This document shows positions 11,965-14,663 of a DNA stretch of 64,000 bases, piece by piece (position 1 is the stretch's first letter; the number at the start of each line of letters is the position of its first letter). The stretch is taken from assembly GCF_005577435.1 (NCBI RefSeq), contig NZ_CP040396.1:3910001-3974000 (forward strand). Direction: 5' to 3'. Made by a program: the position numbers and the translations under genes. A model generated the notes under the pieces. The model saw nothing but the letters and a program-made list of their open reading frames with translations. It was not told where the DNA came from and made no database searches. The DNA is from Paenibacillus algicola (GTDB lineage: Bacteria; Bacillota; Bacilli; Paenibacillales; Paenibacillaceae).

Positions 11965-12013
11965 TTACGGCATTTTCTCAACCGGGGCTGTGGGAGAGCC
12001 GTTAAGAAAACAC
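11965..12013 (-). ncRNA. L13 leader RNA (autoregulatory element)
   Basis: Directly after the rplM promoter the minus strand reads TTTTCTTAACGG, then CTCCCACAG, then CCGGTTGAGAAAATGC. This forms the stem of the known Firmicute L13 leader, a presumed binding site through which ribosomal protein L13 represses rplM-rpsI. Confidence 0.75.
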
Positions 12014-12020
12014 AACTTAT

Positions 12021-12049
12021 ATAATACAGGATACACGCATAAACTGCAA
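12021..12049 (-). promoter_or_regulatory. Sigma-A promoter of rplM-rpsI
   Basis: TTGCAG (12049-12044), 17 bases, TATTAT (12026-12021) on the minus strand, just upstream of the L13 leader. Confidence 0.75.
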
Positions 12050-12144
12050 GTGTTTTTTAAGGTAATGACCTTGAAAACAGCGCTGCTGCCAGGACGTTTA
12101 CACCGTCTCCAAAAACAGCGATCTCAGCATTAGCCCAGTGCCTG

Positions 12145-12936
12145 TTAAGTCCTGATTATATAAGAGGCTGCATCCAGCTCAACGTCCCACAGCATCAAGC
12201 CATGGCTGACCGCTGTTGGCCCTGCCGCTGCACGATTCTGCGCGATTAACGCAGTCCTAACGCTTTCAGGCGTACGTTTGCCCTCACCGACCTCAATCAG
12301 CGTACCCATAATAATCCGCACCATATGCTGTAAAAATCCACTGCCCGTGATATAGGTGTGTACGACACCCTGATCTCGTGGGTGATCCCGGCTCATGCTG
12401 GTGTCAACCTCCATCCATGCATCATAAATCGTCCGAACATGAGATGGCTTGGTGGAGCGGCGGGAAGCAAAGCTGGTGTAATCGTGCGTGCCCAGTAAAT
12501 GCTTCAAGCCTTCCTCCATTGCGCTCACATTCAGCCGTCCATAATGGTGAAATTGATAACGGAGATGAAAAGGATCCGGAAACTGGTTGGCGTTGATCGT
12601 ATATCGGTAGGTTTTGCGCTTCGCCTCCCGGCGGGAATGAAAATCAAGCGAAACCTCCTGTGCATCAGTTACGACAATGTCCGAAGGCAGCCTGGAGTTC
12701 AGAGCCGAACACCACCGCTCCGGAGGAATCATGGCAACGGAGCAGAAATTAAAAATCTGTCCCCGAGCATGAACGCCGGCATCGGTTCGGCCTGAGGCCG
12801 TGATTTTCAACGATTCCCCCGTCAAGCCGTAGATGGCCTGCTCAATCACATCCTGAACGGTGTTGCCGTCCGGCTGTGTCTGAAAGCCATTATAGTTCGT
12901 ACCGTCGTAGCTTACTCTCATCAGAAGATTGCGCAT
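12145..12936 (-). CDS. truA: tRNA pseudouridine(38-40) synthase TruA
   Basis: A 263-residue enzyme that isomerises uridines 38-40 of the anticodon arm. Catalytic Asp52 lies in SGRTDAGVHARGQ; YTSFASRRSTK and GSGFLQHMVRIIMG are further family segments. The ATG at 12936 follows AGGAGGG with 4-6 bases spacing; the open frame extends upstream to 13044 but without a matching ribosome site. It lies after the terminator of the rplQ transcript, and no clear promoter of its own is visible, so it may depend on read-through. Confidence 0.93.
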   Translation of the reverse strand: MRNLLMRVSYDGTNYNGFQTQPDGNTVQDVIEQAIYGLTGESLKITASGRTDAGVHARGQIFNFCSVAMIPPERWCSALNSRLPSDIVVTDAQEVSLDFHSRREAKRKTYRYTINANQFPDPFHLRYQFHHYGRLNVSAMEEGLKHLLGTHDYTSFASRRSTKPSHVRTIYDAWMEVDTSMSRDHPRDQGVVHTYITGSGFLQHMVRIIMGTLIEVGEGKRTPESVRTALIAQNRAAAGPTAVSHGLMLWDVELDAASYIIRT

Positions 12937-13008
12937 AATTTCCCTCCTGCCTGGTGCCTGATGTCGTTCTCCCCGGTTAGGTGAGTGCAGCCTGGTCCAA
13001 AAACACCT

Positions 13009-13037
13009 AAAAAAAGAGCCCACCAAGGAGCTCCTTT
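13009..13037 (-). terminator. Terminator after the hairpin-rich region downstream of rplQ
   Basis: GAGCTC and GGGCTC (minus strand) pair around CTTGGT, followed by seven T residues and flanked by an extra AAAA/TTTT stretch. It closes the S10-spc-alpha transcript. Confidence 0.75.
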
Positions 13038-13316
13038 TCATCATGCCAGCCGATCCTTCACAGTCAGCTGCATGACTAGAAGGCCTACCTTACGATGCCA
13101 CAGGTGTAGCCGAGAGGAGCCGAACAAGTACGGCATGTTCCATCTCGAACCACGTCCCTGATCTAGGCTCTGAACGATTATCACAGGGGATAAATCGGTA
13201 ACGAGCCGGGCATACATAACTACAGTCACTTCGGATGCAAAGCTCACTGTCGTTATTGAAACCTTTCGGCTGCAGCCACAAGATTTCAATAGTGATCTAA
13301 CAGGTTAGATTGTAAT
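13038..13316 (-). ncRNA. Candidate structured RNA between rplQ and truA
   Basis: This 280-bp interval is made of consecutive stem-loops. In transcription order: 13310-13295 (6 bp, 4-base loop); 13291-13254 (8 bp, then a wobble pair, CTT/AAG and GGC/GCC, TGCA loop); 13254-13218 (AAC/GTT, ACAGT/ACTGT, CTT/AAG); 13207-13166 (GGCTC/GAGCC outside, then 8 pairs with one bulge); 13150-13137 (GTTC/GAAC); 13136-13095 (ATGCC/GGCAT); 13091-13080 (AAGG/CCTT); 13074-13042 (CATGC/GCATG, AGC/GCT); then the terminator. I recognise no known RNA family. An 82-codon frame crosses it (13041-13289, TTG start) but has no ribosome site and no recognisable product. Confidence 0.5.
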
Positions 13317-13318
13317 GA

Positions 13319-13684
13319 TTAAGCGCGGTCTACCAGTTCCAGATAGACCATAGGAGCTGCGTCACCACGACGAGGTCCCAGCTTCAGGATACGAGTGTAT
13401 CCGCCGGCACGCTCGGAGTAACGAGGTGCAATCTCAGCAAACAGCTTTTGAATTGCATCCTGCTCACCATCAACCGTTTCACGACGAACAAATGCAGCTA
13501 CCTGACGACGTGCATGCAGGTCATTGCGCTTTGCCTTGGTGATCAGCTTTTCAGCGATGGAACGCACTTCCTTGGCTTTCGCCTCGGTTGTTTGAATACG
13601 CTCGTACAAGAACAGATCAGTTACCAGGTCACGAAACAACGCTTTACGCGCGCTGGAATCGCGGCCCAACTTTTGGTATGCCAT
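13319..13684 (-). CDS. rplQ: 50S ribosomal protein L17
   Basis: A 121-residue protein ([20 protein letters not shown], then [17 protein letters not shown]), located near the polypeptide exit tunnel. It is the last gene of the alpha operon, 34 bp after rpoA. In relatives the ECF transporter genes ecfA1, ecfA2 and ecfT usually follow; here a hairpin-rich non-coding stretch does. Confidence 0.97.
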
Positions 13685-13718
13685 GTGTTTTCCCTCCTTT
13701 GCTAAAGCAATCGCGAGA

Positions 13719-14663
13719 CTATTCTTCCGAACGGAGTCCCAAACCTAGCTCTTCAAGCTTCTCTTGAACTTCCTCCAAGGATTTGCGGCCCAGGTTACGG
13801 ACCTTCATCATATCCTCTTCAGTTTTCGTCGTCAGCTCTTGTACCGTATTGATGCCGGCACGTTTGAGGCAGTTATAGGAACGTACGGAGAGATCCAGCT
13901 CTTCGATCGTCATTTCAAGCACTTTTTCTTTCTTGTCTTCTTCTTTTTCGACCATGATCTCGGCATCCTTCGCTTCGTCGGTCAGACCGACGAACAGGAA
14001 GAGGTGCTCGGTCAGGATTTTGGCGCCAAGGCTGACGGCTTCCTCCGGGCGAATGCTGCCATCCGTCCAGATTTCCATAGTCAGCTTGTCATAGTTGGTC
14101 ACTTGACCTACGCGGGTGTTTTCAACGCTGTAGTTGACACGGCTGATCGGCGTATAGATCGAATCGACGGGAATGACGCCGATAGGCTGGTCATCGTGCT
14201 TGTTCCGATCCGCCTGGACATAGCCACGACCGCGATTGGCGAAAACACGCATATGAAGTCTTGCACCCGGGCCAAGCGTCGCAATATGCAGATCCGGATT
14301 AAGAATCTCCACATCGCTGTCTGCACGGATGTCTCCGGCAGTCACGACACCTTCGCCTTCCGCATCAATTTCGAACACTTTCTCTTCGTCGGAATGAATC
14401 TTCAGCGACAAAGCCTTCAGGTTCAAAATGATTTCAGTCACGTCTTCCATGACACCCGGAACCGTAGAGAACTCATGCAGAACGCCGTCAATCTGAATAG
14501 ATGTGACAGCTGCACCAGGCAGCGAGGACAGCAAAATGCGGCGGAGAGAATTCCCCAGCGTTGTGCCGTAGCCACGCTCCAGCGGTTCAACTATGAATTT
14601 TCCATAGGTTCCTTCCTCATTGACATCAACGGTCTCAATTTTCGGCTTTTCGATTTCAATCAC
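13719..14663 (-). CDS. rpoA: RNA polymerase alpha subunit
   Basis: A 314-residue subunit. The N-terminal domain (about 1-230) dimerises and holds beta and beta-prime; a charged linker rich in Glu and Lys follows; the C-terminal domain (about 245-314, [20 protein letters not shown]) binds UP elements and activators. It lies between rpsK and rplQ as in other Firmicutes, with 131 bp before it in which no clear promoter was found. Confidence 0.98.

Follow-up and report, generated by a model that had tools for sequence, protein, structure and literature searches.

The interval between rplQ and truA in Paenibacillus algicola (13009-13321, minus strand) holds a structured RNA that ends in an intrinsic terminator (13009-13232, minus strand) and is absent from Rfam 15, and on balance we think that it probably acts as a cis-regulatory, intercistronic transcription attenuator of truA. 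All positions refer to the window, the whole 64,000-nucleotide stretch of P. algicola DNA that was analysed. An earlier note on this stretch had proposed a candidate unnamed structured RNA here; its observation is confirmed in part and its interpretation supported in part, the candidate itself being upheld by the lack of an Rfam match, by a fixed place in the genome and by compensatory changes in one stem of the RNA (P2v) and in a second class of homologues (class C). The genes and parts of the RNA are listed below, where class A is the class of homologues that includes P. algicola.

12145-12936, minus strand: truA (tRNA pseudouridine(38-40) synthase), the downstream gene; it scores 198.9 bits with NCBIfam TIGR00071 (cut-off 142.85).
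12942-12952, minus strand: ribosome-binding-site region of truA, AGGCAGGAGGG, read off the sequence.
13009-13039, minus strand: intrinsic terminator, GAAAAGGAGCTCC...GGGCTCTTTTTTT, from a pattern scan.
13040-13076, minus strand: hairpin P4, the putative antiterminator base; 100% of cells paired, near invariant.
13079-13232, minus strand: class A domain 1, a closed multi-branched domain (P0, P1, P2v, P3) on whose outline the consensus fold and the MFE structure agree.
13080-13083, minus strand: CCUU, the strand shared by P0 or an antiterminator with AAGG at 13033-13036; CCUU and AAGG are both present in 17/17 genomes.
13101-13159, minus strand: P3, a long stem with a GUGGU-CGAGAU core and an apical part, P3c; 97.9% of cells paired, mostly invariant.
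13166-13207, minus strand: P2v, a variable stem-loop with a conserved UUAUYC; the 17 genomes have 15 distinct sequences of it, all of which fold.
13208-13213, minus strand: 5' strand of P1, AUGCCC (AUGCC with GGCAU at 13095-13099); 89.1% of cells paired in 11 sequences, and present in the MFE structure.
13229-13232, minus strand: 5' strand of P0, GAAG, with its partner CUUC at 13079-13082; the pair is kept in 11/11 aligned sequences.
13254-13291, minus strand: accessory 5' hairpin, lineage specific, present in the P. algicola fold.
13319-13684, minus strand: rplQ (ribosomal protein L17), the upstream gene; it scores 155.8 bits with NCBIfam TIGR00059 (cut-off 70.05).

Folding of 13000-13330 gave z = -4.25 on the minus strand against -2.79 on the plus strand, with 0/100 shuffles equal on either; the predicted structure is that of the minus, or transcript, strand. 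Hairpins had been reported at 13254-13291 and 13166-13207, and both lie there in the P. algicola fold, while a third, put at 13042-13074, exists with true bounds of 13040-13076, and the terminator, put at 13009-13037, is present but extends to 13039. A further hairpin at 13218-13254 does occur in the P. algicola MFE structure, but its 5' arm is missing from 11 of the 17 class A genomes; the 3' arm, GAAGUGACUGUAGUU, persists there, paired in the consensus fold with distal partners (P0, P1). The 5' extension with the 13254-13291 hairpin is present in only 6/17 class A genomes, P. algicola's subgroup, with differing sequences, and the other 11 have 15-21 nt in its place, stop codon included. Conserved blocks of domain 1 are matched in all 17 class A genomes, as are the P2v and P4 hairpins, and P4 has a mean probability of 0.99 in class A prefix folds and 0.97 in full folds, a prefix fold running up to the terminator 5' arm and a full fold covering the whole RNA.

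A DNA search of 100 relatives gave matches in 12 genomes, P. algicola included. One of these (L012), a 33-nt match to the terminator only and without rplQ or truA, was dropped before alignment; the remaining 11 all lie between rplQ and truA, and their alignment contains blocks that are unchanged in 11/11. Searches with a class A covariance model (R1) recovered at least 17 strong matches in the 100 genus genomes, each in a different genome, and at least 12 among 392 genomes of the order, all of them in the genus Paenibacillus; misses are possible at this depth, as the best 25 candidates per genome were scored in the genus and 6-8 in the order. Three weak R1 matches in the genus (L030-L032) and four in genus g24 (L033-L036) were set aside as chance because rplQ was not found at those loci; L030 and L033-L036 also look coding, a judgement by eye that covers these five and not L031 or L032. 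A pattern scan of named genomes returned 11 class A records, including P. lautus, P. lactis, P. glucanolyticus and P. campinasensis as well as P. solani, P. dakarensis, P. faecalis and P. lemnae.

Within the genus, rplQ was found in 99 of the 100 genomes searched, and truA is the next gene in all 99. By motif, 51 of these intervals belong to class C, 17 to class A, 17 to class D (defined by eye reading) and 11 to class B, leaving three unclassed (L057, L107 and L115). A class C model (R2) places L057 in C, and L115 groups with D on a tree of rplQ and truA, so that the totals after placement are 17 for A, 52 for C, 11 for B, 18 for D or D-like and one with a terminator only. In the order, R2 matches at least 48/392 genomes, all in the genus Paenibacillus. 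Rooted at its midpoint, the rplQ and truA tree has class A as a single clade (100/96) and A and D apart from B and C, and the class labels need 6 changes against a mean of 43.3 when shuffled. The interval of L107 (genome G003), in the class C clade, is 79 nt long with the terminator alone left, and is perhaps a natural deletion of the sensor.

Relationships between the classes are uneven. R2 matches 6/11 class B sequences at E values from 4e-6 to 2e-3, four of them ahead of any match that the palindromic P2 gives on the opposite strand (these begin at 3e-4), and it matches no A or D sequence. B therefore resembles a class C RNA into which a domain was inserted. Matches between A and B by blastn are short only (best E 0.002), and homology of their 5' domains is therefore not claimed. 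The terminator string GGAGCTCC is conserved in the alignments of classes A, B and C and occurs in just 4/18 class D genomes; as A groups with D, which is mostly without this layout, the evidence does not establish that the A and C platforms share an origin. A and C not being sister clades, their common layout is either an old one that D lost or one that evolved twice.

The gap between terminator and truA also holds, in 11/99 genomes by pattern, a dispersed two-hairpin repeat about 99 bp long (reference L087:539-637; also L039, L078, L086, L088, L093, L099, L111, L112, L113 and L121), with at least 24, 30 and 33 copies in the three relatives searched.

The class A RNA is more conserved than its surroundings. 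Across 91 pairs of 14 class A genomes (three near-copies left out), identity is 0.76 in the RNA against 0.28 in the spacer after the terminator, with the RNA higher in 91/91 pairs, and against 0.73 at four-fold sites of rplQ, with the RNA higher in 68/91. A protein-coding reading was rejected: the longest sense frames differ in length, place and sequence, and no sense-strand frame is common to the class A intervals (14/17 examined), in keeping with the statement in the earlier note that no family-like protein is present. The sequence upstream of the terminator has mean fold z scores against shuffles of -3.75 in A, -3.31 in B and -4.24 in C, and folds better than its own complement in 12/17, 11/11 and 44/44 cases, respectively.

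Covariation, which the earlier note had named as the check, is present in places but missing from the main class A helices, which carry no two-sided change. Compensatory changes are seen in P2v, where pair 5 is C-G in 13 of the 17 class A genomes, G-C in one, A-U in one and unpaired in two, and where swapping strands equals the observed pairing in 4/1000 trials, or in 17/2000 on the 13 distinct strand pairs. One P3c pair varies between U-A (12), C-G (3) and U-G (2), and its strand swap is not significant (1189/2000). The other class A helices are almost invariant, with 96.7% of cells paired against 32-49% when slid, 0 two-sided changes and no covariation above shuffles. In class C, five pairs show two-sided changes against 1.0 in shuffles (0/500), on an alignment fitted to the structure.

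The layout around the terminator is where classes A and C meet. In prefix folds of all 17 class A sequences the CCUU/AAGG antiterminator has a mean probability of 0.81 (range 0.54-0.96) and P0 one of 0.01, and in full folds P0 reaches 0.96 and the antiterminator 0.00. Class C, folded for 47/52 genomes (L046, L053 and L057 were missed by the patterns, and L106 and L108 are duplicates), behaves similarly: P1 has 0.20, GCGGGA/UCCCGC 0.68 and CCUU/AAGG 0.83 in prefix folds, against 0.86 for P1 and 0.00 for GCGGGA/UCCCGC in full folds. The class C antiterminator exceeds P1 in 45/47 prefixes and 0.5 in 39/47, and P1 exceeds 0.5 in 42/47 full folds; eight prefixes have an antiterminator at or below 0.5, two of them (L058, L090) with P1 formed. 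Because a prefix lacks the terminator 3' arm, these folds show an available alternative and not its use in the cell. Class B differs (10/11): no such competition is found, P1 persists in prefix folds (0.79-0.98), and a local GCUUGUU occupies the arm AAGGAGC, with L059 folding differently.

Whether the terminator arm finds the same upstream partner from genome to genome was scored against controls in which the upstream columns were permuted identically in all rows. Partner consistency is 8.58 against 2.76 in class C (14/41 sequences; 0/100 controls as high) and 5.23 against 2.23 in class A (11 sequences; 2/60), and summed pairing of the arm with upstream sequence, ignoring columns, is not above shuffles (fraction as high 0.37 in A, 0.51 in C and 0.85 in B). 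Antiterminator cells are paired at 96.6% in A (11 sequences) against 47.7-71.6% when slid, and at 99.0% in C (41 sequences) against 49.3-60.7%. The closing and antiterminator helices show 0 two-sided changes in A and one in C (68/500 shuffles as high), and, being near invariant, they are neither supported nor contradicted by covariation. A terminator thus stands ahead of the downstream gene (13009-13039), and a conserved, mutually exclusive antiterminator is predicted by computation in A and C, and not in the same form in B.

How closely the terminator is tied to truA varies with class. The U-run lies 72 nt before the truA start in P. algicola, and the class A median is 112 nt (17 genomes). 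Among the 89 genus genomes matched by the terminator pattern (10 class D genomes went unmatched), the U-run ends at most 35 nt before truA in 20, with a minimum of 14 nt; by class these are 1/17 in A, 6/11 in B, 12/51 in C, 0/7 in D and 1/3 unclassed. In other genera, the U-run ends at most 36 nt before truA in 10/41 measured. With the terminator near truA in just one class A genome, and 72 nt away in P. algicola, an unseen truA promoter is possible, and a pattern scan of the minus strand from rplQ to truA in P. algicola found no sigma-70-like site. A promoter-like TTGAGC-16-TATAAT was observed at 12155-12182 (minus strand), near the end of truA and before rplM, and may possibly be a separate rplM-rpsI promoter; the scan gave three promoter-like sites against 3.4 in shuffles.

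Of 46 genomes sampled elsewhere in the order, from other genera and families, 45 have truA no more than 700 nt after rplQ, 22 have a short interval (74-136 nt), and 29 have an interval that fits one of two simple terminator patterns. Given this order-wide gene order and these terminators, read-through into truA may be old, and the class A-C RNAs may be elaborations on it. A hairpin of approximate form AAAGGGTGGACRGAATC-N4-GATTCTG-n-CCCTTTTTTT, with a similar internal-loop sequence, was seen at the rplQ-truA terminator in 18/46 of these genomes (L183, L185-L187, L195, L201, L202, L204-L210 and L212-L215); such an internal loop is unusual for a plain terminator. The same pattern was found in 0/299 genomes sampled at class level with up to two mismatches, a sample with few of those genera, and a kink-turn or T-box link, sought by eye, was not established.

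Scanning 12000-14500 against Rfam 15 (4227 families) gave no match at E up to 5, and nine class A loci and 10 loci of classes B, C and D were likewise without a match at E up to 1, so that the Rfam scan suggested earlier returned nothing at the locus or in the homologues scanned. The sole match at gathering in the whole window is an ordinary L10_leader (RF00557; 43183-43340, minus strand, 79.2 bits). In a T-box riboswitch, the antiterminator pairs with the terminator 5' arm and carries a UGGN bulge. Class A and C RNAs resemble this in having an antiterminator on the terminator 5' arm and a downstream gene that deals with tRNA, but differ in having no Rfam T-box match, no UGGN bulge (the antiterminator 5' strand has AUCA between its helices in C and nothing in A) and no specifier stem identified. 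Metabolite riboswitches have a multi-branched domain whose closing helix competes with an antiterminator, and conserved unpaired letters. Both of these features recur here, but no known class matches, the class A and C matches fall within one genus of the order searched, and the 5' domains differ by clade. No Rfam ribosomal protein leader family matches at the locus, where the RNA sits upstream of truA. Transcription-attenuation leaders of ribosomal protein operons, such as the L10_leader and the rplJL attenuator of Bacillus subtilis (PMC4538822), resemble the rplQ-truA RNA in placing a structured RNA and a terminator before a gene in a ribosomal protein cluster; the rplQ-truA RNA is unlike them in lying outside the 5' leader of a ribosomal gene and in giving no covariance match. 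In the open-licence literature searched, no paper among the matches listed describes a Paenibacillus RNA between rplQ and truA; PMC5670726 has no mention of rplQ or truA, and PMC2965389 has none of truA, rplQ or Paenibacillus.

Under the attenuator reading, polymerase leaving rplQ would make the sensor domain (13232-13079), then P4 and then the terminator, and CCUUC, the 3' strand of the helix that closes the domain, would have two alternative partners. With the domain closed (GAAG with CUUC, P0), the terminator 5' arm would be free, the terminator would form and truA would be off; with CCUU taken by AAGG of the terminator arm, as an extension of P4, termination would be delayed or prevented and truA read, and read-through may extend to rplM-rpsI. 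The RNA is conserved, its location is fixed, and its pairings, mutually exclusive in the folding computations, are laid out like the class C antiterminator; we infer an action on truA in the cell, and a balance set by something that binds the domain, perhaps a small molecule, a tRNA or a protein such as TruA or one of the ribosomal proteins. As the full RNA at equilibrium prefers the terminator, antitermination would need to be kinetic or ligand-driven, and because the 5' domain differs between clades a protein partner seems somewhat likelier than a metabolite. We also raise, tentatively, a broader reading: an attenuator with an exchangeable sensor, in which two clades of one genus would place different sensors, class C a simple hairpin and class A a multi-branched domain, in front of one platform (a G-rich strand, CCUU // AAGG-AGC-UCC and the terminator) to sense TruA, tRNA or a ribosomal protein.

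The chief rival, rather less probable than the attenuator but a serious reading, is a small RNA derived from the 3' UTR, in which the terminator would end the ribosomal-protein transcript and the structured part would be cut free to act in trans through conserved unpaired blocks. The earlier note had offered a 3' UTR regulator or processed small RNA as an interpretation, and that proposal keeps its place as a rival. It gains from the start of the structured domain 12-18 nt past the rplQ stop codon in 11/17 class A genomes, from the room that most class A genomes have for a separate truA promoter, and from conserved blocks such as GAAGUGACUGWAGUUAURUAUGCCCGGC (14/14 class A genomes), but P0 and P1 take up much of that block in the consensus fold. 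A staphylococcal RNA-seq table lists small RNAs that neighbour rplQ, under the locus prefixes SERP and SCA (PMC5343137); the likeness is one of position, in that the transcript likewise adjoins rplQ, but the other neighbouring genes differ. Complementarity of AAGG and CCUU, kept in A and C, and a terminator near truA in many B and C genomes argue against this reading, and we favour a cis-acting attenuator because the choice between antiterminator and terminator is shared by classes and the terminator is close to truA in many genomes.

Two further explanations dispense with regulation of this kind. A constitutive partial terminator with stabilising stems, which would lower truA relative to rplQ and protect the 3' end of the ribosomal mRNA with no sensing, fits the short intervals and simple terminators of other genera, the advantage of the terminator at equilibrium and the terminator kept alone in L107; we consider it unlikely, in that it accounts neither for the conserved sequence of a 150-nt domain nor for an antiterminator that finds its partner in consistent columns from genome to genome. 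A mobile element in decay, or a repeat with inverted arms, the other possibility raised in the note, might be suspected from the many hairpins and from the dispersed 99-bp repeat in the same interval of 11/99 genomes, but it is hardly credible: the RNA has one copy in the P. algicola genome at E <= 0.001 and, at the sensitivities used, matches nothing in collections of phages, plasmids or viruses, class A forms a single clade on the tree of the neighbouring proteins, and the 99-bp repeat was not found in P. algicola among the best 40 candidates scored.

If the attenuator reading is true, a cis-regulatory RNA that Rfam does not list separates the genes for a ribosomal protein and a tRNA-modifying enzyme, and its switch strands give direct predictions for a reporter assay. 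As class A, B or C occupies the same place in 80/99 genomes of the genus, Paenibacillus offers a natural series for the study of sensor change before a terminator switch, and an exchangeable sensor, if the broader reading holds, would tie tRNA pseudouridylation to ribosome production.
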